Assembly: GCA_947561715.1 (NCBI GenBank)
Contig: OX387197.1
Span: 3,663,001-3,727,000 of the forward strand
DNA from: Ascidia mentula
Taxonomy: Eukaryota; Chordata; Ascidiacea; Phlebobranchia; Ascidiidae
Length of the DNA: 64,000 nucleotides
Reading direction: 5' to 3'
The position numbers were made by a program, and so were the translations under genes. A model generated the notes under the pieces. The model did not search any database. It worked only from the letters and a program-made list of their open reading frames with translations, and was not told the origin of the DNA. Positions 72 through 25,183 of the stretch are shown here, piece after piece; positions within the stretch are counted from its first letter, which is position 1; every line of letters begins with the position of its first letter.

Positions 72-377
72 CACTATAGAACCTGAAGAAGGTTCACAAA
101 CTACATTCCCTGTAATTCTTCCATTGGGTTCAGATGTCCTTGTTATATTAATTCCAGATTTTACCAACATATTGGTTGAATTCATTTCAAAATAAGTTTC
201 TAAACCATCTGCAAGAGTCAGTTTTCCTCCATCAGAGTAGAAACCATAATCAACTTCAGTGCCAGCAGGAGCATATTCATAAACTGAGAGAGAAGCTGAA
301 TCTCCATTGTAATCTAAACACTCTGCTTGTGTTCCAGAGAAGCTCCAAGCCAGTACAACAATAATCAAATAATTCAT
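72..377 (-). CDS. Gene A, first exon of a cadherin-like receptor (partial)
   Basis: Only exon 1 (102 codons) lies in the window; the rest is off the left edge. It starts at an ATG at 377 with a hydrophobic signal peptide ending near GTQA, and closes with a GTAAGT donor just below 72, phase 0. The mature part has the cadherin-type opening V-x-E-x-AP-x-GT, a pair of Cys residues (near residues 20 and 93) and N-glycosylation sites (NST, NIT). Exon 1 of genes B and C is clearly homologous (the run SASLSVYEYAPAGTEV is identical in all three), so this is the next member of the same tandem family. The adhesion or recognition role is inferred from the fold signature; no partner can be read from the sequence. 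Confidence 0.8.
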
Positions 378-1869
378 GTTCTACTTACATGTCACTTGTC
401 TTAAAAAAAGGAAATACAAATCGATTTCTCAAAAATACAAGGCAACAAACAATTTTTGTAGACAAGTTACTCATTTGAAAGTTGCTTTAATTATTGCACA
501 TTTATAAAAGATTTCACTTAAAGAAGGCTTTGTCTTGTAAAGCAACTGAATATAACTATGATTACAGCAAACACCAGGCAGCAAATAATGTTTGCAATTT
601 TAACTGTGAATTTTTTTATAGTCCTATGGTGCACTCTAGTGATAGTTTTTTTTTTGTTAAAATATAAATTAAGTAAAAAATGGATAAATGATTCTAGAAA
701 TATTAATTTTTGCATTATTTTTTATACTAAAGTTCACAAAGTGTCAAAAACTACCTTAAAGTCACATAAGATTTGGAAACTTGGATATATGTGGAGGTGT
801 CATTAAGATAGCATGATCCGATGATGTGTTTTGCCATGCAAAATAAATATTGCACAGACTTTTCACTAACAAATCGAAATTTTTGGTTTCGCTCATGTAA
901 CTTTTTGTGTAAAAAGTTCCGTGAAGTTGCAGTAACTGCGTGTTACAAAAAATTATTTTCAATTGCAAATCATTAAAAATATTAGCTAACATTTGCTGGC
1001 TTCTGTTTTTCTGTTTTGGGTAAGTTTTGCCGGTGGGAAATACCCTTCCTGTAGGTCACAATTTTTGAAAGAGCGTTTGGATAGGCATGAGTGCGAATAG
1101 TACGCTTGACTGATCACATAATTTTGCTATTACTGTGCAAATTTATATTATAAATTAGGTGGTAAATTTTTGTAATGAAAGTATTAATTTTCTTTTGTCT
1201 GAGTTTTACAAACAAATTTTACAGTTGGTTTCCATTTATTTTTCTGAAACATAACATTTAGAAGAGATAGACGTTACACTTACTTCCGTTTAAGAACCTA
1301 TATGCTCTTGGTGCTGGTATTTTATGCATGCAAAATTTCAAATGCTTTGTCAGCAGGTTACTGCCGGATAATGTATATTTCCGGTTTAATAGAAAGTGGC
1401 CTACAGTCTTGCGTTTAAAAAACACATCAAAAATCAATACAATAGCATGGATTTGTCAATTCCAATGAAATCAAATTATGACCAACAAAATTTAGATATA
1501 TAAATAAGAATATGCACCATAACCAATAAACACCCATAAAAATATCCATTGATATAATCATTGGTGCTTGTTGAATATGTGAAAGAATTGCTTAGGAATC
1601 GCCTGAAGTACTCAAATAAGTCTGATATATCGAACTTGGAGCATGATGTCTGGAACAAAAGAGAAACAAATCTGCATGGTCTTGTAATAATACTCAGAAT
1701 GTACATTTCCAGTGTGAATTTATATTGGATGTTACCAGGTTAGGCTGCAGATTTGAAGTAAACTTTATTGGGTCAAAAAGAGTGTAATGAAATGTTCAGG
1801 GAGATTTTCAGTTAACCTTTTTTATATATAATTGACTAAATCAGTCAAAAGCTAGCCAACGGCACTTTT
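378..1869. other. Intergenic, 5' flank of gene A and 3' flank of gene B
   Basis: No gene is seen. About 605-690 resembles 5190-5265, which lies at the same distance upstream of gene B, so the upstream region was duplicated with the genes and may hold shared regulatory sequence. Gene B ends at the right border. Confidence 0.55.
1764..1769 (-). terminator. Candidate polyadenylation signal of gene B
   Basis: AATAAA on the minus strand, about 100 bases past the stop codon of gene B. It is the first such hexamer noticed downstream. Confidence 0.4.
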
Positions 1870-4800
1870 TTAAAAAATGAATCTTAAATCTTTGCCTCCG
1901 GATATAAATTTAAAGTTAAACTGAACAACTGCATAACACATGTAAAGATAACAATGAACATTTTCAACTTTATCTTCATCATACCTAGGTATATCTTCAT
2001 CATATTGGCCTTCAGGTACCATTTCGTAAATTGGGCCTTCATATTCATGGTTGTCAACTAAAAAAAAATATTTGATTAACTACTGACATAACAATAATAT
2101 AGTAACTCAGACAGAGAATATGTTACCTTAGATACATATATATTTTATGTCAAACCTTTTATGCTAAATTGTGGTTTCATTGAAGCCATTGGCATTGTGT
2201 AAAAAAACAGATAATTAACCTCCAGAGTTTACTAGAATTATTAATTTTGTGATAGATTGCAACGATTCACTGACTTGGGTTTGTTTCCATTTGACTTCGA
2301 ATTTCTGTATGATTTTGATTCCTTTCTGTCGTCTTGGTTGGTGACTGCGGTGTATTTTAAAAAAGGATTATTTTTTTAGGTACTGCCAATATATTTTCTT
2401 ACTTCTTGCATGGACACTTAACAAACCTGATTGACCTGCTTGGCAGGTTTAGTTGACTTTTGTCGGATTTTACGTATGTACAGAAAGATAAAACAAGTGG
2501 CCAAAACAAACAACACCACTATCCCTGCTATTAGGCCATTGACAACATGTGATGGATATGTTGAAGCGTCTGTTCATCGATAAAATAATATGTCACATCT
2601 TTCTAATGCAGTTCAGTTTACAAATTACATTTCAATAATAGTTTGGCGATTAAACCAATACATACCATTTTGAATGAAAGTCACATTAATGGCAAAGGGC
2701 ATTGATTCTCTGTTTGGCGATGAAGAAAGTGCGTTTAAGTTGATTGCCGTTATCTAAAAAGAGGCTACACTAAAAGTCAGTTTGACACTAAATGTCATTG
2801 GTGGATTACCTCAATTTCAGTGACACTCCCAATGGAAAATGTAGAATCGCTTGTAAATATATATCCATCTGTTGAAACTTGAAATGGGGAAGTTGCAAGA
2901 AAGGCAAAAGTGGCCTGCAAAGAATCCAAAACCGGTAATAAAAACAAACATATCATCATGATCAACGACTTAACCATTAAATCATCAGGATCAACGACTT
3001 GAAGTTTAAGTAGCGTCTTTCTACCAGGGTCTATGGTAACATACGCAAAGGAGTTAGGAATCTCTTGCAGATATCCCATTGTTTCACCTGCAGTTGTTAT
3101 TACAGGAGAGGTTGTATCATTTTGTTTTATTTCCACCTGCATTATTTAATTAAATTGTTTCTGCATATTGTTAAATATTATACTAATTATTTTCCAAAAT
3201 GACAATTATTTAAAATCAAAAATCAATTTTATCATTTTTTTCAATCATTTTTATTGGTCATTTTTATTGTGTTAGATATGGCATATGATTTGGAAATAAA
3301 TTTGCAACATGATCAGGGTTTTAACATTTAACTTACAACAAGGGAAGTAAAAGACTTTTTATGAGATTGGTTCTCCATGGCTTCAACCTGCATTGCAAAA
3401 ATTTGACCATTTACATTAGGTGGTTTAAGAACACTTAATTTTCCTGTGTAGGGATCAATGTTGAAGTAGTTGAAGTAATCAGTAGGTTGACCTACAAAAT
3501 AATAAAACGGTTCGAAAATGTTATAAAACTGAACACAAATGTGTTGAGATGCATCTATGTAGTTAACCTGATGCAATTTTGTAGGTAATGGCGTCATCAA
3601 TCTTTATATCACCATCTTTTGCTTCAATTTTGGTTATTGGAGCTCCATTAATTTCCAGAAAATCTACCTAAAATAATTCTGTTTGGAAGTTACTTTTAGA
3701 GTGGGAGGTTTCCACTGTGAACCTCATATTATCGATGAAAAATCAGCGTAACCAACATCAAATGAAACGGATTCAAATGAAAAACATAAATTATTAACAT
3801 CAAAATATGAAAATAGCTTTATAATACTTGAAGGAAAATATTTGTGAAATAAATAAATGATACATTTATGCTTCCAGGTGACACTGTTGCTTGATAGAAG
3901 GGTGGGGTGCAGTTTAAAATGTCATCACATGGCAAAAACACCGGTGGATTGTTGTCCACATCCTGCACATTAAATGTGACTTGTGTGTATGAGGTTTGTT
4001 GCCACGGATTTCCCAAACTGTCAAAGCCATCAGAACTGGCTGAACTGCAAAAAGCATTTTCTACACAATTAGCAAAGGATTTAATATTGCCAGAAGTAAA
4101 AATGTTTTGTTTCAGATTTATGCGAGAAAAAACTTTACTCATGAAAACATAAAAGTTATGATGTAAGTGCCAAAACCAGGATGATTTACACAGTCATTTT
4201 CTTTGCCCACAAACTATTGCAAAGTTAATTAGACTTTGGCGGTAATTGCTTTTGGTAGACACAATAATGATATAAGGTTGATAATTATTGTGGTAGGCAG
4301 CTTTTCACTCACATATTAATGACATAAGTTTGATGCCTATTGTAGTCCAATGAGATTTTCAGTTGAAAAACTCCAGAACTTGGGAATGCAAGTATAAAAG
4401 CAGGTTCTGGGCTTTGTGACACAATTGCATACACCAAATTTGATATACCATCTGGGTCAAATGCAGAGATGGATGATGGAATGTACACATTAAGTGGATA
4501 ATTCTGCACAGAAAAGCAGCGAAATTTATTTTGAGAACTGCAAGTTCTAAATGGAATTGAATAAATTATAATATGGTGCCTTTTTATTCTAAATTTTGCA
4601 TGTAAGATATTTATTCACAAACATACAATAGGTAAAATAACTATACATACATCGGCCAGGTCAAATAAGTTGTTGTTGGAGTTTGTGTAAAATTCTGGTG
4701 AATTCATGTTAATATTCTCAACTCTGACTGTGATTGGCTGATTCTGTGTATGTATTGATGTTTGGAATTTACAAATGCTAGAAGCATCAGACATTAATAC

Positions 4801-5107
4801 TTACTACTGTAGACCCTGAAGAAGATTGACATACTACATCCCCTGTAATTTTTCCATTGCTCCCAGATGTCCTAGTTATATTAACTCCAGATTTTACTAA
4901 CAGCTTTGCTGTTTTCATTTCAAAATAAATTTCCAAGTCATTTGCAATAGTCAGTGTTCCTACATCAGAGTAGAAACCATAATTAACTTCAGTTCCAGCA
5001 GGAGCATATTCATAAACTGAGAGAGAAGCTGAATCTCCATTGTAAGTACACTGTGCTTGCGTTCCAGAGAAGCTCCAAGCAAGTACAACAACAAGCAAGT
5101 ATTTCAT
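1870..5107 (-). CDS. Gene B, cadherin-like single-pass receptor, 592 aa
   Basis: Twelve exons fit in phase: 5107-4805, 4743-4651, 4503-4313, 4044-3864, 3667-3568, 3491-3337, 3136-2975, 2914-2810, 2753-2666, 2569-2427, 2344-2275, 2057-1870. Order: signal peptide (MKYLLVVVLAWSFSGTQA), ectodomain of about 430 residues with degenerate cadherin repeats, one helix (about residues 465-490) followed by basic residues, then a tail. Cadherin marks are the junction DVDNNPPVF, the stretch EAKDGDIKIDDAITY and the LDY-type strand. Classical DxNDNxP calcium motifs are mostly weakened, so calcium binding is uncertain. The tail has NHEYEGPIYE and YDEDIPRYDED, Tyr next to acidic residues, which could be phosphorylated. 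The donor after exon 11 is a slightly unusual GTCAGT, but gene C (GTCAGC) and gene S use the same site. Intron 7 is a multiple of three without a stop, so retention would be tolerated. Membrane topology is type I. Confidence 0.8.
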
Positions 5108-7170
5108 CTCTACATGCTATATGTCCTGATAAAAATGGTCATGAATTTTACAACAGAGAACATCACACAGCAGTTACCAAATAATAAACTTTTGGTTGTC
5201 TTGTGGTGTACTCTAGGAATCTCATTTTTGTGTTCAAAATATAATTTAATAAAAAAACATGAACATCTTTACAACTATAGTGCCAGATTTATTGTATGGA
5301 AATTTACAAGATACAAAAAATTACCATGACTTTGGAAACTTGTGGATAAAAGCAGATTTAAGGACGTGGATTTGTCAAGTGGCATCAAAACGATTTGCAC
5401 CATTTTGTTTACATTGCGGCAGAATATTTCAAAGTTTATCATTTTTAAGAAAATCGTTGTGAACGACATTTCGCAAAATTTTTTCATTTGCACTATGTTT
5501 CTTATGTCTATTAATTTGAATTTTGATGACGAAGAGGAGCGATAATAAGGTGTTGATGATGTTATTTGCTATCCCATGTGTTTGGCATATTTGTTTTATT
5601 GCATCGACTAAAATTTATTTCAAGCATTGAACATATTCGCTGATATACTGTCACTGTTAAACAAGCCGTTATTGTACACCTTGACATTCAGATAAGGTAA
5701 CACAAACGCTTGAGGGAAATTTAATCACGAAGTTTTTATTATATTTTGTCCCACCCATTAATCTCTTATCTGTCCTTACAAATATAACTGAACTGCGTTA
5801 CAGAATAAAACTGCTCACAAAACGTTTACAAAACTCCTTCTTTCCTGCATGTCCTTTATTGTTTTCTGTAATAGGAAATCTAACCCTGGTTAGAACATTC
5901 GTACAAAACGAGAGTCGTCGATGTTACATGAACACCTTTTGAAAAGCTTGTGCAAATACCTATTGCATTGTGAGAGAATTTTTGTCGCTTTCAGTCGCTT
6001 GAAACCACATATTTAACTTGTGCCACATTCACACTTGATTTACGGTATCACCTGTTCCGAAGTAACCTGGAGCATTGGGATCGCTACTAGTATTGAACAA
6101 GAATACCTTTGCCTGTATATGATAGCATACATGATTTTATTTTTACACATCACGGATATTAGACAAGAAAAGGAGATTAGTAAAATATATTATCCGGTGA
6201 CACGTAAAGTATTTATTTACAAGTAACATTTTGATGCCGGATATTTCTTAACGTTCACAACGCCTGTTGGTGTCACTCCTGTCAGAGTCGCTTTAAATGC
6301 CAGCAAACAGAAAATCACATCAATATCAGAACACAGATATAACTCCATACCCAAACATAGCGCCCACCAGCAAACAAGTTTCAGACAACTTTCAGACTTG
6401 TGTTTTCTCAGTCTTAATAAACAGTACAATGTACAAGTACGAAGTAAATCATTACGAATGAGCACAAAACGTACGTAAGCAAGTATATGCAAGTATGACG
6501 TACATCACAACGAAGGAGCACGAAAAGTACTAGAACAATAAACAGCAAACAAACCAAAAACGAGAATGAAATTGAATTTGAAACGTACCAATAGTTGATA
6601 ATGATAATGTTATAAGATATGTTTGCGTTTAGAATGCTCATAATAAAGGCTAGAAGCGATTGAAGAGTCTCGTATGACGGACTTGCGTACAAATAAGATT
6701 CCAGAAAATTACAAAACAAACAATTTCTGTGGTGTTTCACTGTGTGCAAATGCTTGTTTGTGCTTCTGCAAGTTCTAGAATGAAACGTTTCTCGGAAGTG
6801 ACCTAAACAAGTTAGGTAAATAAGTAAGATTAAAACCAGATATTACTCACTCTTAAAATAATTTATAACCGTTAAAGTTTGACGTGCTGTTTAACCGCTT
6901 TGCTTGAAAAAAATATTTGAGGAAGAAATATGAACCAAATATTGAAAAGGCCCCTTGACAGAAAATAATGTGCCGGTACGAGGACCTATAGGTGGCACCC
7001 AGCCAAGATCGAAACCCCGTAATTTCAAAGCAAACAATGGTGTTTGTCTGCCCCGTTTTCACATTTCCAGATGCGCCACATTTGGCTTCACCTCCCCTCT
7101 CATGGCCCTGTTCATGGCCCTTTGAAAGCTTTCGTTAATTCGCGCCTCGAACCAACAACAAAATTTAGGT
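5108..7170. other. Intergenic between genes B and C
   Basis: The first 200 bases upstream of gene B match the flank of gene A. The remainder shows no convincing exon on either strand: the open frames are short, AT-rich and lack homologous counterparts. Gene C ends at its right border. Confidence 0.5.
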
Positions 7171-10100
7171 TTAGCAGAGCATGCAACGGTACCTCGGTAT
7201 TTCTTCGTCATAACTTGGGACTTGATTAACATTCGGTATTTCTTCGTCATAACGTGGGATTTGATTAGCATTCGGTATTTCTTCGTCATAACTTGGGACT
7301 TGATTAGCATTCGGTATTTCTTCGTCATAACGTGGGACTTGATTAGCATTCGGTATTTCTTCGTCATAACGTGGGACTTGATTAGCATTCGGTATTTCTT
7401 CGTCATAACGTGGGACTTGATTAGCATTCGGTATTTCTTCGTCATAACGCGGGACTTGATTAGCATTCGGTATTTCTTCGTCATAACGTGGGACTTGATT
7501 AACATTCGGTATTTCTTCGTCATAACGTGGGACTTGATTAGCATTCGGTATTTCTTCGTCATAAGATGGGACTTGATTAGCATTCGGTATTTCTTCGTCA
7601 TAACGTGGAACTTGATTAGCATTCAGTATTTCTTCGTCGTAACATCGGACTTGATAAGCATTCGGCATTTCTTCGTCATAATATGGGACTTGATAAGCAT
7701 CCGGTATTTCATAGATAGGGTATTCATATTCATGGTTGTCTACTGAAAAAATATTAGGTTTGTGCTTTGAAAGAGAGTTGATTTATTGCCATTGTTAAAA
7801 TATGATACTGGCATCACCTGTAGGCGTCTGTCGATGATCAGCAACATTTGGCGACTGCATTGTTGAGTTTTTCAAAATATTTTGATCATCGTTTTCCTGA
7901 CAGGTTTTTGCTGACATATTTGTATCTCTTTCAGACGGTGTTGGCTGATTCACGGTCGCTATTGATTAAGCAGTTAAATTATGTATATATCTCTTCTTGC
8001 CTTTAAATCATTTCACATAAGAGGTTAAGTCTGATTTAAACGATGTTTATGAACCTTTAACACATTACGCGATAGAACTTGTAGGCCTATCTGCTATGTT
8101 CCAAATATAAGTTTTTGGCAGCAAACCAATGCAATTTTGTCATTGTCTGCCGTAACATCGTGTTGCTTATACTGAAATCGTTACAGTGGGATTAACTGTT
8201 TGTAGACTACACATTCACTCCTATAGAGCACAACATTTTGAAAAGCTTGGGACCAAAAGTGTGTTACTGTTCTGATTATGAGCCATTCTAGTTTACCATT
8301 GTCACAATTATCGTTACATTTATTTGATGTCAAAGCTTTGGTTAATTTAACATAAACCAATTACAAATTGCTGACTTGTATTTATTTTCGCTTGATTTCT
8401 GTTGTCTGCATGGTTTTGAATGATTATCGGCGCCTGTGGTTGTGGTTGGGTTTTCATCTGCAAAAAAGATGAACTATAAATAATTCCTTCAACTCTCCAA
8501 ACACACTTTCCAAACCTGTTCCACTTGCTTGGCATGTTTAGTTGAATTTTGTCGGATTTTACTTATCAGCAAAAAGATAAAAAAACACGACAAAACGAAC
8601 AATATAACAAACCCTGCTATCAGGCAGTTGACAACATACGATGGATATGTTGAATCTCCTGTTCATCCATAAATAACAACAACAAATATAACATTAATTT
8701 TGTATTAATTTGTTGTTCAACGTAATGTAGGTTAAACCAGATGAGGCAAATGACATAGCAGTTTAGACATACAAACCAACACACACCAACACGAATGATG
8801 GACACATTTGTATATAAGGGCATTGATTCTCTGTTTGGTGATGAAGGAAGTGCGTTTAAGTTGATTGCTGTTATCTAAAAATCAGATGTACTTAAAATCC
8901 GTTTGGCAGTAAATACTCTGTGGTTTACCTTAATTTGATGTAGATCCCCTACATTTAAAGTAGAATTACTTGTAAAAATATAACCGTCTGTTGAAACTTG
9001 AAATGGGGAAGTTGCCGAATATACGAAGACCGCCTTAAAAGCATCCGGATTCAATAATAGGAATAACTTTTAAATATTTAAAATTATGTGCATACAAGTG
9101 GATCATCATCAGCAGCTACTTGAAGTTTAAATGGTGTCTTTCCATTGGGATCTACAGAGACGTAAGGCAAGGTATTTGAATCTGCATGAATATATCCCAT
9201 TTCACCACTGGAAGAAGTAATCACTGGAGGTGTAGTGTCATTTTGTTTCACTTCCACCTGAAATGTGTTTACTTAAATCAGGGTTCTTACATCATGTAAA
9301 TGCTTAATGTTGATTGATCATGTTACAGTTCACAATAAAATGTTTACTACCTAGTAGACAAATCAAGGACAAAAAAGGTTATTTTTGTGACACAGAAACA
9401 ACACCAAACACACATGTTTTATTATTATTTTGTTTTATGTATATTTCTTGGAAGAAAGTTTTTGATTTCACCTACAATGAGAGATGTAAAAGATTTCTTG
9501 TGGGATATGACTTCCATTGCTTCAACTTGCATTGTGAAAGTTTGACCATTTACATCAGAAGGTTTCAGCATATTTAATATTCCTGAGTTTGGATCAAGTT
9601 CAAAGTAATCCACGTAGTCAGTTGGTTGACCTACAAAACAATAATTTGGGAATATTTTTACCCACTTTTCTTAAACAAAAGCTTACTCTAATGTTACCTG
9701 ATACAAATTTGTAAGTTATGGAGTCATTAATTATTATATCTCCATCTTTAGCTTCAATAGTGGTGATTGGAAGACCAGCAATCTCATCGAAATTTACCTA
9801 AACAAAAGAATTTATCTGCAGATTGCTTTTTGCATGTGAGTATATATACTTTAAATTCAATTAATTTTGAAGCCACAAACCTCTATTTTATGTCAGCAAA
9901 TTTATTTAATAAAATCGATTTCTCTTGTGTGCTATCAGCATCGTTGGTTTCTTATTTAAATTGAATAAAGAAACTGATGATGCTTACAGTTATTTATTAA
10001 TCCTAGTTAATATTTTTTTTAAAGCAAGTAAGATAAACCGAAAAAAGTTTTAAATTTTGCCCAAAATAGTCACCTAAAATCATTTACAAAACTAACAAAA

Positions 10101-11295
10101 TATTTTCTGCACAAACATCTGATAAAACAATATTTATACATCAGTTGATCCTGGTGCCACTGTTGCCTGGTATATGGGTGGGGAGCAAGTTAAAATGTCA
10201 TCACATGGCAAAAACACTGGTGGATTGTTGTCAGCATCCTGGATATTGAATGTAACTTGTGTGTATGAGGTTTGTATAGACTGGTTTCCCAAATTGTCAA
10301 AGCCATCGGAGCTGGCAGAGCTGCAAATGTTTTATACAAATTTAACAAGGTTCTCCACATTATCAATAAAAATTAAAAATTTATTACTTTTGTTATATGC
10401 GAGGAACAACTTGTCCTGTGAGTCATGTATTGCAGAGTAAATTTATTCACACAAAAATCAACATGGTAGTTATGATTTGAAGCAGTAACTTTTTTGGCAA
10501 ATATTTACTTACACATTGAGGATGTACATCTGATACTTATTGTAGTCCAATGACATTTTCAGGTGAAAAACTCCACAACTTTCGAATGCAAGCTTAAATG
10601 CAGATTCTGGGCTTTGCAACACAATTGCATACACCAAGAGTGATATACCATCGGGGTCCAATGCAGAGATAGTTGAAGGAATGTCCACATCAAGGGGATA
10701 ATTCTGCACAGTGATGCATTCAGAATTGCTAACATTGCATGAAAGAAAATAAATTAAAGTACTGCACTCTTTCACTCATAATTATGCAAGTAAGCTACTT
10801 AATCACAGACATAAATTGGGCAAAAAAGTTATACGTACATCATTCAAGTCAAATGTGTAGCTGTTTGTGCTAAATTCTGGTGGATTCATGTTAATATTCT
10901 CAACTCTAACTGTAATTTGCTGATTCTGTGTATGTAATGATGTTTAGGGTTAACACAACAATGTCGTAGAAGTATCACTAGATATCAATACTTACCTCTA
11001 TAGAACCTGAAGAAGGTTTACAAACTACATTCCCTGTAATTCTTCCATTCTCAGATGTCCTTGTTATATTAACTCCAGGCTTAACTAAAAGTTTTGTTGC
11101 ATTCATTTGAAAATAAACTTGCAGGGCATTTGAAATAGTCAGTGTTCCTCCATCAGAGTAGAAACCATAATTAACTTCAGTCCCAGCAGGAGCATATTCA
11201 TAAACTGAGAGAGAAGCTGATGTTCCAATGTAAGTACACTCTGCTTGTGTTCCACAGAAGCTCCAAGCAAGTACAATTACAATCAAAGGGATCAT
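7171..11295 (-). CDS. Gene C, cadherin-like receptor with repeat-expanded tail, 768 aa
   Basis: Thirteen exons fit in phase: 11295-10996, 10925-10839, 10703-10513, 10320-10140, 9797-9698, 9630-9476, 9257-9096, 9033-8929, 8874-8787, 8658-8516, 8457-8376, 7958-7818, 7742-7171. Exons 3-10 have the same lengths as in gene B, a clear tandem paralogue. Start chosen at the ATG at 11295 because it aligns with the starts of A and B; an upstream in-frame Met has no counterpart. The ectodomain repeats the cadherin marks (QDADNNPPVF); one helix follows VNCLIAG. The tail differs from B: an extra symmetric phase-1 exon (7958-7818) and a final exon that opens with VDNHEYEYPIYEI and then runs into about fourteen copies of PNANQVPRYDEEI. 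Adhesion or recognition receptor is inferred; signalling through the Tyr motifs is speculative. Confidence 0.8.
7192..7733 (-). repeat. 39-bp in-frame tandem repeat, about 14 units
   Basis: The unit is 39 bases (13 codons) and never breaks frame on the minus strand. The consensus peptide is PNANQVPRYDEEI. Central units are almost identical; units toward the 5' side of the exon (7620-7733) are diverged (for example PDAYQVPYYDEEM), as expected for an array that grows and homogenises from the middle. Gene B has a single ancestral-looking YDEDIPRYDED at the same place. Confidence 0.93.
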
Positions 11296-11870
11296 ATCGA
11301 TTTTAGATGAAATTGCTTGTAACAAAAAGGAATAAATTTGGTGATATAAAAAAAGTTCGAAGCAAGTACAATAAAAATCAAAGGAATCAGTTCTATTTCA
11401 GATCAAGTTGCCCACAAAAGAAAGGGATTAAAATTGGAAAATATAAAAATGTTTTTTTTTTGCTAAAATCTATCTTTGCACGTTCTGAAATGTCTAGTAT
11501 ACTTGTCAGCCACAGATCTTTCAATTCTGTGTTACTTGAAAAACAATGTCAATCTGTGGGTTACCAAACTAGGAAGGTGCAACTTATCTATCTTTACGTC
11601 TCGTATGTTCCTAAGTTGTATGGTTTGGGTCACATCCACAATTTGATAGTCTACCAATTTTGCTTGAAGAATAGGACCAATTTACTATGGTTCACTAAAG
11701 CGTCAGTCGTAACAAGTTAGTATAAATACACACATAACTGCTTTGTGTTGACAGTAAAACCGACATTACGCAACTGTCAGCAAATTATAATTTAGGGATA
11801 TATTCATTATACCACTGAAAATCAACATTATATGCATCTTTCATATGCAAAGTATGTGCTTTTTGGCGTA

Positions 11871-12197
11871 TCATTCGCCCAAACGATTAAGTTTGTTTAC
11901 AAAAACGAAACAACTCCAACTCGACACCCAGATAAAAACAACTGGCGAGATCATAACACTTTGAAACTGCAAATATTGGAAATGAGGCAGTAATTCGAGA
12001 TCTTTTACGACGCACTCATTTTCGATGTTTACAACTTTGGCATTACTGCGATTTAATGACGACGATAAATACTTTCTCCAGTATTTCGTAATAACGCCCG
12101 TAACTGTGATGCCCATTTTCGACGTTTGATTTTCATCCCACCGTGTTTTATTACCGTCGCAGAAAAATGTACAAATGTACTTCAAGCTGATGTACAC
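11871..12197 (-). other. Open frame of 108 codons in duplication copy 1, unknown
   Basis: Uninterrupted frame including the run ITVTGVITKYWRKYLSSSLN. The duplicated copy at 13694-13921 keeps nearly the same peptide (ITVTGAITKYWRKYLSSSLN) with several conservative changes, hinting at past coding constraint. No recognised domain, no clear signal peptide, no splice sites placed. It may be an exon or a relic. Confidence 0.3.
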
Positions 12198-13693
12198 ACC
12201 ATCTCTTAAAGTGTTGTTGGGAGAGTTTTAGGAGTTGTTCAAACACATTTCGCGATTGCCCATGCTAAACTGGATCAAAAAGTTTAAACAGAGCTATAAA
12301 TTTCTGTTCGGACAAGAATGTGTCGTTACCAGCAGGCCGGTTTGTAAGTTATTTACCGCTGCCGGTAACAAAAATGATTTCAACCGTTGTATCTGCCTCT
12401 AAACTTTTGGGGGTTTTTGAACAAAAACCTTTTATGAAATATGCCAAACGAATCATAGCAATTTCAGATCAAGTTGCCCACAAAAGAAAAGAAATGAAAT
12501 TTGAAAATATAAAAATGTTTTTTTTTTGACAAAAACTATCTTTGTACATTCTAGTAAACTAGTCAGGCACAGATCTTACAAATCAGTGGTACTTGAAAAA
12601 CAATGTCGATCTGTGGGCTACCAGACTAGGATGCTGCATCTTATCTGTCTTTACGTCTCGCATGTTTCTAAGTTGTATGGTTTGAGCCACATCCGCAATT
12701 CGATAGTCGTACTGCCGATGGTGTTGGCACTGTTCTCGCAGATCTTTTCAGGTATTGCGCTTGAGGTCTGTTAGCAGTCTTATCTGATATGATAGATTCA
12801 TTCGAAAATCGTTTAAAAAAACAGTAATATACGTTTACGACCAACTGTATTTACTCTTCGTTCATTTGCTTACGCGACTGTAAATTATTGCCATGAGAAT
12901 AATTGGACTTCGACAGACGACGACTTCGATTGAACTTGCATTGCATTTTGTTATATGCCTTTGCACGCATGAATAAAAATGGTGATGTAGAACTGAAAAA
13001 ACAAACACACGCAGTCCTCGTGTCATATAAAGCGATACGGAGTTCATCTGCCGAGAAGGTGTAATAAAGGTGGCACTTCAACATGTTTTTACCAACTTTT
13101 GCTTTTTGACGGTATAAAAAATGATATTTGTACGTGTTTATGGGATTTTAGTGGTTGGAAGATTGAAAAGCGATTACAGTCGCGAAACGCATCGACTACA
13201 TTATTTAAGCTTCCATAAACCTTATGTCAACCTCACGTACTGGACATATGTAGCTGTTTGTCATGCTGTTAATTGATGACGTTCAAAACAATTTACACAA
13301 ATACGGCCTATTGATACGTTGTTAATCATAACTAACAGTTTCCCAAATAAATTAACCAAACAAGTTGTAACACATTTGGTAAATCCGCTGTAACTCGTAT
13401 TAGGTTCTAGACAGCCAATAAAAAACTTCCAATTTTACTTGGACGAAAAATACGACCAATTCACTATGGTTCACTAAACTGTGCGTCTTCAGTAACAAGT
13501 ATAAATACACGCATAACTGCTTTGTGCTGACCGTAAAACCGGAATTACGCAACTGTCGGGAAATTCTAATTTAACAATATATTTACTGTACCATTAAAAT
13601 AATCTACATAATATGCATCTTTTATATGCATGAACCAAAGTATGTGTCTTTTGGTGTCTTATTTGTCTAAGCTTCTTCACAGAACGAAACAAC

Positions 13694-14051
13694 TCAAACT
13701 CGACGTACAATAAACACAACTGTCGAGTTCACAAAATTGCGAAACTGAAAATATCGGAAACGTGGCAGTAATTCAAGATCTGTTACGATGCACTTATGTT
13801 CGATGTTTACAACTTTGCCATCACGGCGATTTAATGACGAAGATAAATACTTTCTCCAGTATTTCGTAATTGCGCCCGTAACTGTGATGCTCGTATCCGT
13901 TGTTATTGATTTCCAACCCACTGTGTTTTATTACCGTCGCACAACAATGTACACAAACACTTAAAGCTGATTTACACTCCTGTGTTTCTTGGCGAAATTT
14001 TATGAGTTGCTCAAACACATTTCGCGATTGCACAAGATAAGCTTGATCCAA
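13694..14051 (-). pseudogene. Decayed copy of the 11871-12197 frame
   Basis: The duplicate aligns with copy 1 on DNA level, but its upstream half has stop codons (after the matching CDGNKT region) and the frame shifts before ITVTGAITKYW. One copy intact and one broken supports a pseudogene here. Confidence 0.4.
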
Positions 14052-14345
14052 AAAGTTTAAACGGAGCTATTAATTTCTGTTCGGACAAGATTCTGTCGTT
14101 ACCAGCAGCCCGCATTGCTTTTCAACCGTTGTAGTAACTTGTGTCTCTAAACTTTTAGGGGTTATTGAACAAAAATCTTTTATGAAAAATCCCGCGAAAA
14201 AATTTGTTCCACAACACAAGACTGTCAGTCAGCGTTCATTTAATCATCTGCAATTTGAACAACATATAAGCTAATATTTTGGCACAATAATAATTTAGAA
14301 CCGAGACCAGAAAACGTTTTCAGAAGCCCTAGGTTACTACCAGAG

Positions 14346-15115: not shown

Positions 15116-17461
15116 CTAAGGTATATTGAGAGCATAATGGTCTTCTTCTTTGTCAAAACGTGCCAAATTGCAAACGGGGTCTTCATACACATGATTGTTT
15201 CCTGAAAAACAATGCTCTTGTTATTGGCAATGGAGTAGATCCTGTACTTCGAAAGGTTTGAGTGAGTTCTGGTGTTATTTTGCAAGCCGTAACAAAAAAG
15301 CTAAAAGATGTTGGTTGTTATTATTTTCTAATTTGTTGGTAACTTCTAAAAATAATATCAAATATTACCACCATAAGTAGTTGAAAAAAATTTAGTATTT
15401 TACTTTTTTGTTAAATAACCAAAAAATTTTATACTTGGTTATGGGCAACAAAGGAACCAAATGTAACATTATAAAGAAGTAACTTGTAATTTTTGGCCTT
15501 AAAAGATTATGTGCTTGTAAATTTTGTTACTGTTGTAATGATTTAACCCTGGGCAAACATATTAGGTGATTAAAGCTATGAGAGTACACAAATACTTAAA
15601 TCCCAGTTTGTTGTCTCACAATACGTGGTTCATTGTCGAGTTCTGCAGGTTTTGTGAACATAATTTGGAATTGCACATTTCAAGCTTCAATCCATGTGAT
15701 TATTTGTTTCATAGTAAAATGACAACTTCATAGAAATTAAAAAAAGCCCAAAAATGTTTCCCAAATTCAATACAAAAAAGCACCATTTGGTAAATGTGCA
15801 TTCCACGTTGTAAACCACTGCAGTATAGTGGTCATTCCTTCATGCCTATCTATGTTAATATTATGGTGACTCATCAAGATACTTTATACTTGACCAACTT
15901 ATTTGTTACGGCATAAACCAATGTATACATTCACTGACTTGAGCTTGTCTGCATTTGCAGTCTGTCATCCATATGGTCCTTGCCAACCACCATTGCCTGA
16001 AAAATGTTATATTTCTGATATTGTTTGTTATATAAAACCCTAGACAGTTGTTACTGCAATGTCGAGACCAACTGGATAAAGTAAATTGAATCAAAGTTGC
16101 ACTTGCATTAACATTCCTTCAGTTTTTGACTGAGGTTTAGGGGACAATACCAGATCCATGTCAATGTTTTTGTCAAGTATTTTTCAGTACACTCCCAAAA
16201 GAAACAGAAATACAGTATAATTTTACAAACCTGTCCAGTCTGCTCAGAATATTTAGTTGGTTTCTGTTTGACTTTCCATATGAGAAACAGTATGAGACAT
16301 AAGGCCAACACAAACATCACAATCATTCCCAAAATCAGACTGTTGACAACATATTTTGGATATACCACTCCACCTGTAATGTGAACCTAAATATTTTAAG
16401 AGTTCTATTTGTATGAAACTGCATTCTTTTTTGGTAAGTTAAAACTACCTCAAAATGACAAAGTTGTCAAAGAAAATTGTCCAAATTTGGCTGCATGTCA
16501 GATTAAACTTTTCATTTGATTTACTGTACTTTTAATGGATTTGCTGAAATTAACTTAATACAAGAAACCAACATTACATCGTTAGTCATTAAAAACCTAA
16601 ATTACTATTAAATTTTTAAGTATAATAACCCTGGGTAGTTTCTGTGCATGGATGACAAGTTGGACATTGCAATGTTGTTGCTACAGATGCAAAAGTTGAA
16701 ACCTCTATTGTAGATTTGCCAACCTCAGATGTAGTGTTTTCTACAAAATTTAGATACATCAAGAAGACAAACTAGTGGTGGTCATTGTATGCATGTTATT
16801 AAGTAGCGTATAGCAAACAGAAAAGAAATGTGATTTTAAGCATAAAAGTGCGATTGTTTTTCTGCAGTCGTTTATATGCAATTAGTAATATCACAATACA
16901 TAAAAAAATCTTGGTTATATGTACCTTGTGTTATTGCTGTCAAAGGTGCTGAGACAATATCTGTAGTGCTAACAAAAGGTTTTTGTGTAGTAGCAGTATT
17001 GCCTGTTCAAAAGCAGTATATTTTCATTGTTATAACACAAACCAAAATGGGGTAGTAAGTAATTTTTTTACTTTTATTTGGTAACATAAACCAGAAATCG
17101 CAACAAGGGTATAAGGTTGTTTATTGGTCATTTAGATGCAATTAGTGACACCGCCAACCAAAAAGTAAAAAAAAATCTGATGGTCGTACCTTGTGGTATT
17201 TCTATCGAAGGTGTAGAGGTAACTTCTTTTTCACTAACAAAAGGTGTTTGTGTAGTAGCAGTATTGCCTGTACAGAAGCATAATATGTTCATTGTGAGTT
17301 ACAACACAAACCAAAGTGAGGTAGTATGTAATTTATTTTATGTTATATTTGACAACATAAAGCATAGAAAGTCTAATTACATCTTGTAACAAATGAACAC
17401 TAAAGATACCTTGAATTGAAACTAGACCAGCAAGATACAACACAATACCAAAGAGTTTCAT
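15116..17461 (-). CDS. Gene S, short Thr-rich single-pass protein, 201 aa
   Basis: Seven exons fit in phase: 17461-17410, 17267-17190, 17002-16925, 16740-16630, 16373-16231, 15996-15939, 15201-15116. Exon 1 is a signal peptide (MKLFGIVLYLAGLVSI). Exons 2 and 3 are 78-base phase-1 duplicates, each encoding GNTATTQxPFVS plus a Thr/Ser-rich run. Exon 4 holds a CPTCHPC cluster. Exon 5 is a membrane helix opening YPKYVVNSLILG, homologous to those of genes B, C and D, followed by a basic stop-transfer. The tail has NNHVYEDP, matching the NHEYE element of B and C. It is thus a family member without cadherin repeats; the stalk is probably O-glycosylated. It could be a co-receptor or decoy, but that is inference. 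If the odd GTCAG donor of exon 6 is not used, the tail ends four codons later at a stop at 15931. Confidence 0.65.
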
Positions 17462-20400
17462 TTTGATCACAGATTTTTGTACCTCTCTAGTATCACAAGT
17501 TTATTTTTTTCCTTTCATACTGTTTTTAATGTAATGCAGACAGTAAGTGGTGTTTCACAAGTAAGATAAAAATGCCAATCATTTAGTTTATGTACAACTT
17601 TCATTTTTTTCCTGATATAAAAATGTTTATACAAAGCATAGATCTTCCACTGACAACATAAAATCCCTGAAATTCTTGCAAAAACTGGCCTAGATTGCTG
17701 CTAAATCATCCAACCAAGATATTGCTTTTTTGAATATATATATTTCCCTATGCGACATCCTCAGTATTCTTATTTGAACAAAAATTCTGAGGATGCCATA
17801 TTTTTGTCGTAAGTTACTATCTGAGCAATGCTTGTGCCATATTAAGTGACAATTGAATGACATACAGTGGACTAAGACAGGCAATGTTTGATTTTAAACT
17901 CCATATGATGCAACATTGCACTCTGGTGGTCCACATTATTAAGTTTGTACATCATTGGACCTGTGAACATTTTTTTTGATTTTTTAAAGTTTAAATCATA
18001 CACCTTGTTTACACCAATTATCCATGAATACTTTCTCATCATGAAATGGTTACAGCCAAGTGGTTGGCAGGGATGCAGCAAGACTTGCATGGTTGATAAA
18101 AGAATATATAAACTTATGAGGAGGAAAAGAGAAAATGCAACCAACCAGAATCAAGACCAAGTTACACATTGCTTCAAAGCCTGCTTTAGCTGTTATTACC
18201 TGTATTTTGAGGTTTCAAGTGACTCGCATACTAGAACCAATGTGATTCCATGTGAATGATCAACCATTCTAAAGTAAGCCAAGACCATGTTTTTATGAAT
18301 ACAAACAAAGTTCAACCGGTATAGGCCGCATCTCTGTATTTCTATGGAAAAGACTTTCCCGGTTGGGAAATGCCCTTCTCGAACTCTGTCGTGCGTAACA
18401 GAGTAAAATTATGTGTAACAATGCAATGGGTCATGCATGGGCGCCAGTGTTTTGGTTGAATGAGCGCAGATGAACAGGCTGTTGCCAGGGCGATTTTCAG
18501 CGTGTTTTACTATGGTTTTCAGGGTTATTAGTCAGGCAGTAAATTGGTAGAAGGTGCTGTTGAACATGTAGCTGAAAAACTATCCAAATATTGAGGTTGA
18601 TTTTGTGAAAAAATGAATCACAGAAAGTATGGTCAATTTGTGATTTTCTGTTAGTGCCGACCCTTGCCTAGGAATTCTGGCCAAATCTATAATCAAAATA
18701 ATTACTTTAACTGCTCCCCCCGGGGCATTTTGACCCTCTGTTGGCCATCATTTTGGCCAAAAAAGCAGAAAAAAGTGTAGGTTTGTTTTGTGAAAAATTG
18801 AATCACAGAAAGTACCCTCCATTTGCGATTAAGTGAAGCCACCAACCCTCCTCTACACAATTCATTAAGAATTAGATGTCTTGGGGCCGCCCCGGGACTG
18901 TTTGTACACCCCCTAGGACTGACAATTTAGCAGTTAGCCTTTGCCCCCTGTCTTAATGCAGCTGCAATCAATTTTTTTTCTGTTCAGCAATAGTAGTCCC
19001 CCTTCATGAGTCATCAGACCCGGCAATTGTTTTTGGCAAACAAGAGAAACTGTAACCAGGTGCACAATGGCAAATGACTTCTAAAACTCAATTTTTAGGA
19101 TTTAATTGTGAGATGCGGCCTATAGGCCCCATATCAGTATTAAATGCCAAAAATCAAGTTCTGAAGGTTATCTGCATTGGTATAAACACAGAATCATTTT
19201 TAGCATGAAACAATTCCTGTGGCGTTTTACCAATGAAGGTCCACTAGTATTATTAGTGGATCTGAGGAGCCTTCAGGAGGATCTTATATCCTGTAGGATA
19301 GCAGAAACAGTCCCAGGAGGCTGCCAAAGCAAGTTTCCTGTGACAATTATTTTCGCCATTGCATAGAAAAGGATTGGGACCAACATTGAACAGCATATTG
19401 GATCAGGTTTTTGTGACTCATTTTTTCGCAAAACCAACTTACATTTTTTGCAGCTTTTTTGGCTAAAATAATGTCTGACCAAGGGAAGAAATGCCTCTTG
19501 GGGGGCGCTTTCAGCAACTATCCTCCAACTAATTTTGACCTGAATGTGTAAACAAGAGGGGGACTGACATAAAATGGCAAATGAAGGTATACTTCTGTAA
19601 TTAATTTTTTAGCTACATCCCCCAAGAAACAATGATTTGAAAACCAATCTATGTCATCATCACATAAATAACAACTGTAATGTAGAAAATTGATTTGCCC
19701 TGTACACTTTTTTAAGTAAAAAAATGATGGTTTATGAAAAAAAATCATGATTAAGTAATCTATTGCATGATCTGAATGTTTAGTCCAGCTCTGTACATAA
19801 CCTTGATGAATGGTTATTTTGGCAAATGTAAATCTTGCCTTTACATACTAAAAATGCATTAAATTTACGCACACTGAAACAGCTTCCATGTTTTTTAATA
19901 TATAATTATTACAGGAAATGAATTTGAAAATGAGCTAACACATGCTGGTAAGATTGGAAAGTAATCAGACAGATGCAACATAAACATTTTAGCTGTAAAT
20001 ACAATGTAAGTTTTGACAAATGCAACATGAGGAGTAACTGCATTTGTTTTGCTCTACTAGAAACAGTTGAGAAATGTATCTGCAGGTAGCAAACCAAAAT
20101 TATATATCCAAGGGCTAATAAAAGTACATAAAAAAAAAACAAATTCTGCAAACCCAATGACACTTGACATGTAAGTGCATAAAACAAACACACCAACTAA
20201 AATTTAATTTTAGGAAATTGCTCCTATTTTTACATGCTGTTAACATAAAATTTTTAGTACAAAAGAATATAAGCTTGAGAACACAAAGGGAAATATAACA
20301 AAATTTTTTTTCATTAAAACATGGTTAATAGAATAGAAAAATTATTTTTTGAAACTAAGGACAGGAAGTTAGAATAATGAAAATAAAACCAAACTGAAAA

Positions 20401-20466
20401 TTGTGTTTAAAAAATCGATTTCATATGCCGATATTGTTAGGAAGAGATTTTGTCACAGATGAACAA
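17462..20466. other. Intergenic between gene S and gene D
   Basis: No exon is supported. It holds a candidate inverted-repeat element (18320-19124) and, inside that, two related stretches (18594-18680 and 18779-18860, sharing GAATCACAGAAAGTA). The rest is AT-rich single-copy-looking DNA. Confidence 0.5.
18320..19124. mobile_element. Candidate DNA element with 15-bp terminal inverted repeats
   Basis: TATAGGCCGCATCTC at 18320-18334 is the exact reverse complement of 19110-19124. The outermost TA on each side could be a TA target duplication, as used by Tc1/mariner-like elements. The 805 bases are richer in G and C than the surroundings and have no long frame, so the element would be non-autonomous. 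A 15-bp pair could still arise by chance. Confidence 0.45.
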
Positions 20467-23400
20467 TTAATGCCGAGTGTTTTGATACGTCAACCCAGAT
20501 GGTGCTTCGTAAGTGTCATGGCTGAAACAAAAATGCAACTTATCACTCATAAAAATTCAAATGTTATTTTTGTTTTAAATTGTATGGAACAGAGAAATAA
20601 TTATTGGATTTTGACAAGTCAACTTGATGCATAAATTTTACTTAAGAAGTGAAACAGGATAGTTTACCTTGTTATATGTTCATTATACATGCCTTCAGTA
20701 TCAATGTCCACATCATTATACACACCAGCATCTGGAACAAATACATTTAATTTTTTATTTTAATAATTACCAGTTGTTGAAACTCCTAAATTGATCACAA
20801 ATGTTGTGCAAAATAAACAATCTTGAGAATATTAGCTAGAGTTCAAAAGTGGAAGATGTTTTGTTCACGCTTGTAAAAAGGTTTAGTTTGTGTAAATAAT
20901 CAATTTTTCAATCAAACATTTGCATGTTCAAAAAATATTACCAAACAGCAGCATTTGTCGTAGTTTGCAAATAAACATGCCTGAGAGATACTTACCGTCA
21001 TGCATGGGTGGTACGGATCTCGGCTGAGGATTGGTGGGGACTGGGTAATGGGTGCTTTTTTGGTTTCTGGTTATGTTTTGGTAACCATGTGCAGAAGGGT
21101 GTACAGGTGGTGGTGAAGAAGCTCTGTTGTGTATTTGCTTAGAACTTTGTTGTTCATATTGGTTTTTGGGCCTTTGGCGATTATGATTTTGAGATGGTTT
21201 ACACTGTGGTTGATTTGCCATCTATAAAGAGTAATTCTGTGTTACTACATTTTTAGAAATTAAACAAATAATCAAAAAAGCTATTTTTAAAATTTATTTC
21301 CAGTTGTTACCAGCACTTTATAAGTTAGAAAAAAATTTTGACACAGACCTGCACAGGATTCTCCACCTTCTTTATTGGTTTTTGTCTAAATTTCCATATA
21401 AGACACCATCCAAGTACAAATGCAATAAAAAAGCAAGCAACCAGTCCACCGATGAGGCCATTTACAACATAATATGGGTATGCTGCAAAAAGGTATAGCA
21501 TTTGGCACATGCAGGGGTCAATTTGCACAAGCAAAGTGAGAGTTGAAATTATCAAAATTTTCTGAAAGCTTTTTGGTTAACAAAGACCACACCATTTGGA
21601 CACAGTTGTATTTGAATACCCAATACTAATGGTGCATACAAGCATAGGCATTAATAATGACGCATTATATACATAAATGTTGAAAAGCTTGTGAAACAAA
21701 TAGCTTACAAGATTTATTACTGAATATGTTGAAATTATCTGCTACGAAGTCTTTGTCAACCAAAGGTAGACTTTCAAGTAGTTTGTTAAATATTCTTAAC
21801 TTCTTACCAAACTTTTTGAAAAACAATCACAAGAAAACAGTGTTTCTAAATCAACTTACTTTTGGGTTGAACAGTGACATCATGAGCTGTCACCTAAAAA
21901 AAAATAAAAAATATACAGTTGAACAAAATTTTAATCATCTAACACAAGCTATAAATAAACAAGAAAACAGACTGTGGTACAACGCCTTTTTCCACAAGTA
22001 GCAAGAAAATGAAACACATTGCATATTGTTCAAACAACCAAACACTTTCAGTTTAGTTTGTCAGCTATTATTGGTCAAACATATTACATTTGAAACCAGA
22101 ACCCATTGAAATAAACCATTTAATCAAGTTTACCACTTGGTGTCCTATTGGAAAATAAATAGTTTTTTTGTGTCGGTTCTAAAATCATGTTGTAGAAAGA
22201 GTATGGAGAACTTTTAATCTACCATATATTATGTTTATTGTCTTGCTCAAGCATTGTAGAATGCATATAAACAACCATTACAAAAAAACAATTTTTTGTA
22301 ATTGCTCATACAGAGAATGTGGTTGTTGAAGTTTTTCCAGTGCTTTCCTTAGCTTCCACATAAATATTAAACTCCCCCATCTCAGGTATTGCTTCGAGCA
22401 TGTAGACTAATCCTGTGGTCTCATTTATGGCCAGATAGTCAAAGTAGTTTTCAGGTTGACCTTTGAATATCACCATATTAGTTTAAAGTTATAATACCCA
22501 CTTACTAAACCTCACAGAGAATATCTTATGGAGGTTAGTTTTATATGCTGGTTTCACAATACAATATCTCACAAATGCATACTGGTACCTTAAAAAAGTA
22601 CTTTGGATGTTGTAATAAAGAGCTTTTGTATGGTAGTGCTTCAACATTGGCAATGGAATTGTGTTTTTAAAATAAAATAATAAAAGTGTACTATAACTGT
22701 ATTAAACCATCAGATGTAGAAGCCTGAACTTTATTTAAGGTAGAATTTAATTATTGGTTGTTAAAATTCTTTTTAGCACTATTTATTTGTTTTTGGCGAG
22801 ACGAATATTTCTACTAATAACAGCACTCACCCCAAACAAAACTGTAGGTAATACTTGCTTTGTTTGAGTCCAAATCGACTGCTGTGATGTTATTTGGTTT
22901 CACCATGACATCCTTAAAGAGAAAAAAACCTACTAGGTATTTGAAATGGTCGCATCTACTAATATTGCCAGTGTTTCAACAAATTAGCAAGGCTAATATT
23001 TTACTCATTTGTGGTGACAAAGTTTTTTTTCCAGCCACAGTAGCAATTTTTTTTGCTCAGTTACATTTTGGCCATCATATACCTGCATCTTTCCAGTTTC
23101 AATTTTAGAGGTGTAAATTCCGCAGGTGCCAGTGTTGTTTGCACATGATTCAAAACTGAATTTTGGGGGATTGTAGTCGGTATTCAGAACAGTAACAACA
23201 AAGCTGGTGTTTTTAGTTTGGTTGTAATCTACACCATTACGGTCAAATCCAATACTCATAACAATTCTGAAACAGTAACAAATACAAAAGTTTAATGTAG
23301 TACTCATGGCATCCAAATATTTTATTCCTAACATGACATGTATGCAATATTGAATGCAAAATTTATGCAATGCCAGGAGATATAAAATGTGCTATAATAC

Positions 23401-25183
23401 CAATACTCATCACGTAAAACTGATATAAACTATCATAAAGTGAACATTTCAATGGTAAAATTTATAGACAAAAGAAAACTAAAACAAAAGATTGTTGTAA
23501 GTTAACAACACAATACAATTAATTTGATTAGACTTTACAGAGACAAAAAACTTTGACTCCTAACTATGTACAAGTTTTATAAAGTAAAGGTATTGTGATG
23601 AAAGGCAAACTTACATATTCATAATATGTTGTTTACTTGCTCTATAGTCGAGATGTCCCAACTCGGATATTGATATTTTACCAGTGTTTTGGTTTATGGT
23701 AAAATTGTCATCACCAGACAAGTTATAGAAAATTGAGGTATCGGGAACATCTTCATCAGTAGCATTAACTGAATATATAATTTCCATTTCAGGTGTGGTC
23801 TGTTGAATAATGTAAAGCTTTTAAGAACACATAGTGTTATTTTGGTCCACAGTTACAATACCACAAGAAAAACCATACAACAAATATAGATATGTGAATT
23901 ACTTCTTGCCTAGAAGATTAAATAGTAGTAAACCAGGAACCATATGGACAGTCCCAAGCTTTCTAGAAACACAGCTAAAGAATTTACCGACTTTCTAAGT
24001 TTAATGAAAGCATTTCAAATTTGAACTGACTCACTTCGTTTACATCCACTGTGTATGGAAGACCATAGAACGTGATGTTATTGGCACTATTTATGTTGAG
24101 GACTGATATGACAGTAGTAATATTTGTAGTGCCCTGTTGAAGGAAAAGAGCTTGACCAGTTTTGCATGTTTTAGCAATGACAATCATAAGCTATAGATAC
24201 TCTTTCTTCCTCATGGAACAGTTTCAGCACGGAAATTGTATGAAGCTACATTTAATATTTAAATGCAAACTGTTGATAAAGCACTTAAAAAGATTGATTT
24301 TCCCTGTACATATATTATTGTAACAAATGTAAATAAAGTTTTTTTTTATTTATCAATGATGGTTTATTGTGTTCAACAGTTCAATCATAACAAAACTTAC
24401 ATTAAATTTATTAACTTACATTGCATACAATATACCCTGTTAAATTTGTGTGTCGGTCAATGGTAGTATCCGCGACGATAACAGTCCTGAGGGCAGAAAT
24501 ATTAAAAAAGTAGTCTAAGTTGTCACTGAGGGAGAGGGTTTCATTCACAAAATTGACCGACTGGTTTGCTTCATTCTGAAGAAGAACCACAGAACGAACC
24601 GGAGCATGTTCAAAAACACTTCCAGTCAATCTTGTGGAATTGACAGAACAACCTGAGACTGGTAAAAGAAACACAAACTTATATTTCAGGCCTGTTTTTT
24701 TGTTACACAGATAATATCGCATTGCAGAAAGAATTATAGTCTGCCTGGGTTAATCTGGCCATTACCAATTGTCAAATAAAAAAATATATACAGTATTACT
24801 GATTAATTATGTGAAAAAACAAATACACTTGATGGAATTACATAATAAACAGCAATAAATGACTGTTTGTTTAGTGTACATCGGTTAAGCCATGATATAA
24901 ATGACATCAGTGAAAATTCAGCGAAATAAATTTCATTGTTTAGTTTAGTGACAATAGCAGCAATAATAGCTAATGCGCTGCAGCAGGTTTTCAGATTGTT
25001 TTTATAAGTTTAGAAAAATTTTACTTTAATTAATTTTTATGTTACGGGATACACTGTTTCTATTTATGATACCATAATATTAAAATTCACTCCAACAAAA
25101 TAATGAACCATATAAAACAGTATTTATTTACCTGATTGAATGCATGTAATACAGCAAAACAATGTAAATACAAGCCAACTCAT
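20467..25183 (-). CDS. Gene D, divergent cadherin-like receptor, 498 aa
   Basis: Twelve exons fit in phase: 25183-25132, 24652-24420, 24133-24035, 23799-23615, 23266-23083, 22912-22831, 22460-22312, 21893-21860, 21482-21349, 21221-20996, 20731-20668, 20521-20467. Signal peptide MSWLVFTLFCCITCIQS is a separate exon. The ectodomain has the V-x-E-x-AP opening (SVFEHAPVRSVV), an EC-like stretch NATDEDVPDTSIFYNLSG with a following LDYRA strand, and the linker NTDYNPPKF. The helix after YPYYVVNGLIGG matches B, C and S. The tail is Pro/Gln/Asn-rich and basic, then has several Tyr residues (GVYNDVDIDTEGMYNEH, DTYEAP, LTYQN). It lacks some EC exons found in B and C. Membership of the same family is well supported; the ligand is unknown. 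Confidence 0.8.

Follow-up and report, generated by a model that had tools for sequence, protein, structure and literature searches.

The cadherin CDHR5 is described as most similar to PCDH15 and as a protein with four extracellular cadherin (EC) repeats and a mucin-like domain, of which some human isoforms are devoid, and in its EC1, for which a crystal structure together with EC2 exists, the disulfide C5-C73 links strands A and F (PMC8691648). Among receptor tyrosine kinases, cadherin extracellular domains are said to be unique to the Ret family (PMC8662651). Here we describe a locus of the ascidian Ascidia mentula in which both themes seem to meet, at the low end of a stretch of 64,000 nucleotides (assembly GCA_947561715.1, contig OX387197.1, positions 3,663,001 to 3,727,000 of the forward strand; the window, to which the coordinates below refer). 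In keeping with an ascidian source, COX1 on contig C79 of the genome gives a sensible reading with the mitochondrial code of ascidians, in which AGA/AGG stand for glycine. The locus consists of five genes, A, S, B, C and D, and we regard it, with a probability of roughly 0.6, as a family of CDHR5/PCDH15-like (Cr-3) cadherin receptors that went through a small tandem expansion specific to the lineage and whose intracellular outputs were swapped, the pseudokinase of gene D included. The receptors A-D have a common head of EC1-EC3, to which EC4 is added in B, C and D, and this head has stayed similar, partly via exchange between copies, whereas stalk, membrane segment and tail are swapped. The most interesting point would be gene D, which appears to encode a cadherin-headed receptor pseudokinase that is unlike RET.

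The starting point was a tblastn comparison of all reading frames with the region, in which B, C and D came out as close copies (n=3), A as a distant copy and S as an additional membrane exon. The gene models were then rebuilt exon by exon with splice sites and phase fixed, and all genes lie on the minus strand:

20467..25183, minus strand: gene A, spliced model in frame; 12 exons, 498 amino acids; Pfam Cadherin E 2.1e-15
15116..17461, minus strand: gene S, spliced model; 7 exons, 201 amino acids
7171..11295, minus strand: gene B, spliced model; 13 exons, 768 amino acids; EC1-EC4, membrane exon 8516-8658, tyrosine-array tail
1870..5107, minus strand: gene C, spliced model; 12 exons, 592 amino acids; EC1-EC4, membrane exon 2427-2569, short tail
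1..377, minus strand: first part of gene D, with the whole of exon 1 (377-72) and a single base of exon 2 (position 1)

AG/GT borders flank the internal exons of the models, the frames of all five genes are open up to the stop, and with these clean splice sites the models bear out the tandem cluster on one strand that an earlier note on this DNA had claimed. The identical sizes of exons 3-10 in B and C, also stated there, are found in both models (191, 181, 100, 155, 162, 105, 88 and 143 nucleotides); gene D keeps 191, 181, 100, 155 and 88 nucleotides in exons 3-6 and 9, and its exons 7 and 8 differ by 3 nucleotides. Position 72, the low end that had been given for the cluster, is a real exon border but not the end of gene D, which runs about 14 kb past the edge of the window: the flank holds exon 2 from its second base onwards and all of exons 3-32, to position -14174 (about C1:3648826, C1 being the contig of the window), and the full model has 32 exons and 1245 amino acids with AG/GT borders, consistent phases and no stop. 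Gene A is composed of a signal peptide exon, three EC-like repeats, the membrane exon 21349-21482 and a tyrosine-containing tail of three exons (20467-21221), and EC4 is missing from it in the alignment. Gene S, which is without a cadherin ectodomain and stood outside the Pfam Cadherin scan, has a signal peptide, a Thr-rich stalk with one CPTCHPCTETTQ exon (16630-16740), a membrane exon of the A/B/C type (16231-16373; tblastn match to A, B and C) and a short tail. In clustered protocadherins, variable ectodomain exons are spliced onto shared constant tail exons, and such an organisation was rejected here, as each modelled gene owns its tail exons and a multi-exon ectodomain. With all five proteins as queries, tblastn at E 0.05 matched only the modelled exons across the window and a 50-kb flank.

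Some smaller duplications were seen within and between these genes. In gene S, the second and third exons, of 78 nucleotides each (16896-17298, minus strand), are alike together with flanking intron sequence, which marks an exon duplication. The start of gene B is overlapped by two copies of a 95-bp unit (11258-11449), the upstream copy of which resembles part of the stretch coding for the signal peptide. Between S and B lie the duplicated blocks 11396-12850 and 13403-14271, which are similar in translated frames of both strands.

The cadherin signature on which the earlier note had built was recovered when the spliced ectodomains were compared with the Pfam Cadherin profile (PF00028). All four genes with an ectodomain pass, each with two stretches above the curated cut-off and at a level far from chance (E 2.1e-15 for A, 6.2e-10 for B on a copy with shortened array, 5e-12 for C on exons 1-10, and 7e-15 for D), and the best stretch falls within EC2 in A, B and D and within EC3 in C. 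When a profile of the four genes was searched against the PDB, the longest single colinear match was PCDH15 (profile 52-410, chain 53-437, 89 bits for the stretch), and it is this colinear alignment on which the assignment of EC1 and EC4 rests. EC3 by itself matches PCDH15 over nearly its full length (4-118 of 122 residues, 32.8 bits) and CELSR1 over 18-114 with 32.9 bits. The cysteine pair of EC1 is invariant in all four genes (positions 2 and 74 of mature B, with the signal cleavage placed by eye) and would correspond to the C5-C73 pair of CDHR5.

Several observations weigh against such an affiliation. With the whole profile, CELSR1 reaches 124 bits, made up of many separate repeats, and PCDH15 119, and CELSR1 heads further PDB lists too, being ahead by 0.1 bit with EC3 alone and first in the list of 59 matches that the B ectodomain gave at E up to 1, a list that comprises CELSR1, PCDH15 and other cadherins. 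Because CELSR1 outscores PCDH15 on the whole profile, the Cr-3 kinship rests on the colinearity and the cysteines. CDHR5 itself was not found among the PDB matches of B (59 of 59) or EC3 (39 of 39), nor among those listed for the four-gene profile (best 60 of 95) and for a further search (best 60 of 66), in which CELSR1 is again at the top. Judged by eye in the alignment of gene B, the EC2-3 linker is near-canonical (DADNNPPVF), and the EC1-2 (ENINMNPPEF) and EC3-4 (KQNDTTPPV) linkers are degenerate, with several canonical acidic residues missing. AlphaFold2, given the EC1 of A-D as translated from the exons, yielded no usable fold (pLDDT 35).

The nearest known proteins of A-D are nevertheless probably the intermicrovillar and tip-link adhesion cadherins CDHR5 and PCDH15, as suggested by colinearity, the EC1 cysteines and the stalk of D. 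With PCDH15, which has eleven EC repeats, they share the long colinear match and an EC3 covered almost entirely; they differ from it in their tails and in having only three to four repeats. With CDHR5 they have in common the cysteine pair of strands A and F in EC1, the four EC repeats (B, C, D), the mucin-like stalk (D) and the single membrane passage (PMC8691648), and they differ from it in forming a tandem family with tyrosine-array or pseudokinase tails, in the missing EC4 of A, and in the lack of a mucin stalk in A, B and C. Gene D thus has both the four EC repeats and the mucin-like domain, B and C have four EC repeats without the stalk, and A has three.

In gene D, nine B-like exons are followed by stalk exons 10-20, membrane exon 21, three linker exons, kinase-like exons 25-31 and a last exon. 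The stalk is encoded by eleven phase-1/phase-1 exons and is Thr-rich (Thr/Cys-rich and mucin-like), with an ECPTC unit in seven of the exons (14-20), and the membrane exon is unlike the type found in A, B, C and S. After this single membrane segment, residues 938-1188 form a full-length domain of the tyrosine kinase type (Pfam PK_Tyr_Ser-Thr, E 1.1e-44). According to the gene model and the alignment to Mer, its catalytic loop reads HCHLQAKC for HRDLAARN, and DYE stands for DFG; the lysine of the VAVK position is retained. The domain is apparently a catalytically disabled pseudokinase. Outside D, HRD and DFG are retained in seven of the eight kinase matches in the genome that cover the catalytic loop (L038, L040, L042, L047, L048, L049 and L051), and the eighth, L046 (C52:599268-599849), which may be a pseudokinase of the integrin-linked-kinase type, is also without HRD, so that D is not the only case of such a loss in the genome.

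The PDB matches of the kinase-like domain, considered as the best 60 of 1464, are headed by a tandem construct of EGFR by means of two 57-bit copies, and the best single matches are Mer (107 bits), UFO (Axl, 105) and Tyro3 (104), with FGFR3 and Tie2 at about 101, MST1R at 96, CSK at 95, and MET and Ret at 94. By PDB score only, the domain may thus be called TAM-like. This bears on the question of whether D could be a divergent orthologue of RET, a receptor tyrosine kinase with cadherin repeats, which we hold to be very improbable. D does resemble RET in having cadherin repeats and a domain of the tyrosine kinase type together with one membrane segment, Ret kinase chains are present among the above matches, and a cadherin ectodomain has been stated to be a Ret-only trait (PMC8662651). 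Yet Mer, Axl and Tyro3 score higher than Ret, the HRD, Asn and DFG motifs are lost from D, the neighbours without a kinase have the same ectodomain, and the list of 59 matches for the B ectodomain includes not one RET chain, though distant kin can escape such a search. The RET ectodomain includes a cysteine-rich domain, and at this place D has its stalk of CPTC units.

In the window and flank, tblastn with the kinase region of D gave no match outside D that was better than E 0.8. In the rest of the genome, the longest matches are less than about 31% identical, short exons reach up to 55% over 42 positions, and the closest short stretch outside D is a kinase exon at C69:4180397 (L057; 60.5% over 38 amino acids). 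The genome search with the D ectodomain at E up to 1 gave no D-like ectodomain on its contig, C69. Five kinase-exon matches lie within about 50 kb there (C69:4180397-4230705, both strands), which suggests a cluster of tyrosine-kinase-like genes.

The ectodomain of D likewise appears to be confined to the locus: a search of the genome (195.8 Mb in 79 contigs) with E up to 1 gave 34 matches, of which 27 are in this cluster and seven on C52 and C72 (E 4e-5 or worse), the latter at sites where PF00028 also detects cadherin repeats (29 of 29 candidates scored), and no second ectodomain copy was found outside the cluster by this search. A possible PCDH15 at C72:6427683, weakly similar over the EC2-EC3 linker, was rejected because a 361-base piece of it did not contain the cysteine motif. 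The stalk pattern CPTC-x-PCT has five matches genome-wide, four in D and one in S, and the reversed pattern has none. A looser protein search with the stalk (E up to 1; 150 of 203 candidates scored) gave at least 92 matches, eight in the cluster and 84 elsewhere, those elsewhere with 18-30% identity and the best at C2:15226704 (E 2.7e-8). Distant relatives of the stalk may thus exist beyond the cluster, and the restriction to D and S concerns the exact pattern CPTC-x-PCT.

The single message of gene D is a prediction from exon order and phase. D could be split into two adjacent genes, one for a cadherin, with its end near exon 9, and one for a mucin-stalk receptor pseudokinase, with its start near exon 10. 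The membrane exon of the A/B/C type is indeed missing from D, the stalk resembles that of gene S, which owns a signal exon, and within the stalk there are two overlapping weak candidates for hydrophobic ATG exons (-4187, -4166). A scan for signal exons of at most 130 nucleotides with an ATG, a hydrophobic stretch, an end in phase 1 and one of five donor types retrieved the known signal exons of S and A. It detected no signal-peptide exon from the end of exon 9 up to the start of the stalk, and a scan without the phase limit detected none between the membrane exon and the kinase-like exons. The scan is limited to short exons and few donor types, and a long first exon like that of B would escape it, which weakens the case for a single receptor. 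Exon 9 has a phase-1 end that fits the phase-1 stalk exons, all 32 exons are in frame on one strand, and the cadherin part, if unjoined, would be left without a membrane segment, so that two genes seem unlikely to us.

Chances are about even that in D a cadherin-headed receptor tyrosine kinase, in this case a pseudokinase, arose for a second time and independently, when a CDHR5-like adhesive tip and a mucin-like stalk were joined to a receptor kinase, and that D forms one adhesion system with its kinase-less neighbours, the same head leading to scaffold-type or SH2-docking outputs. No description of such a receptor was found in the open PMC literature on cadherin, receptor kinases and tunicates, as judged by titles and the starts of abstracts.

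The tails of the other genes differ strongly. The number of exons past the membrane exon is three in A and B, two in C and S, and eleven in D, and past the predicted membrane segment there are 7 tyrosines in A, 20 in B, 7 in C, 3 in S and 17 in D, the kinase-like domain counted. In gene B, the tail includes an array in the last exon:

7194..7710, minus strand: 39-bp tandem array in the last exon of gene B; 13.3 copies with 94% matches by TRF (Tandem Repeats Finder), commonest 13-amino-acid unit YDEEIPNANQVPR

The array provides 13 YDEE units with YDEE(I/M) sites in tandem, and YDEEI may resemble an acidic SH2-binding site. The tyrosine motifs of A, C and S are otherwise of different kinds, gene C has a single motif of the B type (QYDEDIPRYDEDK), and the tails of B and C have in common the lead DNHEYE.PIYE and the unit YDE(E/D)IP. 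The differences between the units of the B array are even over the codon positions (11, 10, 10), and because of this lack of bias the array looks recent and does not demonstrate selection on the tyrosines. With these exon counts, tyrosine tallies and the array, the diversified tails of the earlier note were found again. Its wording of a conserved outside and a fast-changing inside stands as far as a common head and diversified tails are concerned, but the inside is better called a module replacement, as exemplified by the kinase-like domain of D and the tyrosine array of B.

An exchange between the copies had also been proposed, and it is supported by one tract in particular:

10842..11062, minus strand: near-identical tract of B and D, likely gene conversion; end of exon 1, intron 1 and exon 2 of B

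In intron 1, B and D are 99% identical over 70 aligned bases, and Ks between them ranges from 0.07 in exon 2 (about 16 synonymous sites) to more than 1 in exons 5 and 7, with exon 8 saturated. A three-way alignment of B, C and D (2156 ungapped columns, 873 of them variable) was shuffled 5000 times. The longest run shared by B and D comprises 19 variable sites and was equalled in 0 of 5000 shuffles; the shared run of C and D has a p of 0.0018 and that of B and C a p of 0.19, the best segment of B and C being equalled in 0 of 5000 shuffles. As the shuffles take no account of unequal rates in exons and introns, and as the B-D tract spans an intron, this tract is the firm case of exchange. The dN/dS averaged over the ectodomain is about 0.35-0.39 for B-C, B-D and C-D (A is outside the comparison), and there is therefore no sign of an arms race at the resolution of the ectodomain average.

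Tandem copies with exchange and differing tails with tyrosines are what would be expected also of a recognition locus, serving allorecognition or the sensing of pathogens, with polymorphic cadherin-like heads, activating and inhibitory tails, and a diversity kept by gene conversion. A recognition locus that contains families of receptors and co-receptors is described for Botryllus, likewise an ascidian, and the fester and fester co-receptor families of its fuhc locus resemble the genes described here in being an ascidian receptor gene family at one locus; fester and uncle fester, however, are described with Ig and sushi domains and with a known diversity (PMC12065747), whereas here a single assembly was analysed. 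The average dN/dS of the ectodomain does not favour such a function, there are only four ectodomain copies, to which a search of the window and its 50-kb flank at E 0.05 added no other, and Ascidia mentula is termed solitary (PMC11109543). A recognition locus is thus rather unlikely, and it is weakly excluded on the basis of one assembly; a role in recognition is possible and is required by nothing found here.

In the preferred reading, that of an expanded CDHR5/PCDH15-like adhesion family, the heads would engage another cadherin or one another in trans, on microvilli or adjacent cells, and the receptors A-D may mix in cis. Upon contact, the tails of A, B, C and S could be phosphorylated by a separate tyrosine kinase and would then serve as docking sites for SH2 proteins, and the pseudokinase of D would act as a scaffold or an allosteric partner rather than as an enzyme. 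If this is true, a CDHR5-like head on a receptor pseudokinase beside tail-swapped relatives would demonstrate how adhesion receptors gain and swap signalling outputs, with the swapping achieved by exon shuffling at one locus, and in ascidians, this would be found in a chordate group that is open to experiment.

Two further observations concern the rest of the window. At 60185-60502 and 60672-60995 on the minus strand, two adjacent reading frames are clearly similar and have a hydrophobic stretch, and for the first of them, the only one of the pair scanned, there was no Pfam match at E 0.01. On the plus strand, the region 43410-56594 contains, among the frames scanned, Macro domains (43410, 53449) and PARP catalytic domains (48059, 56244) in repeated order, which we take to be the order of tandem PARP14-like genes.

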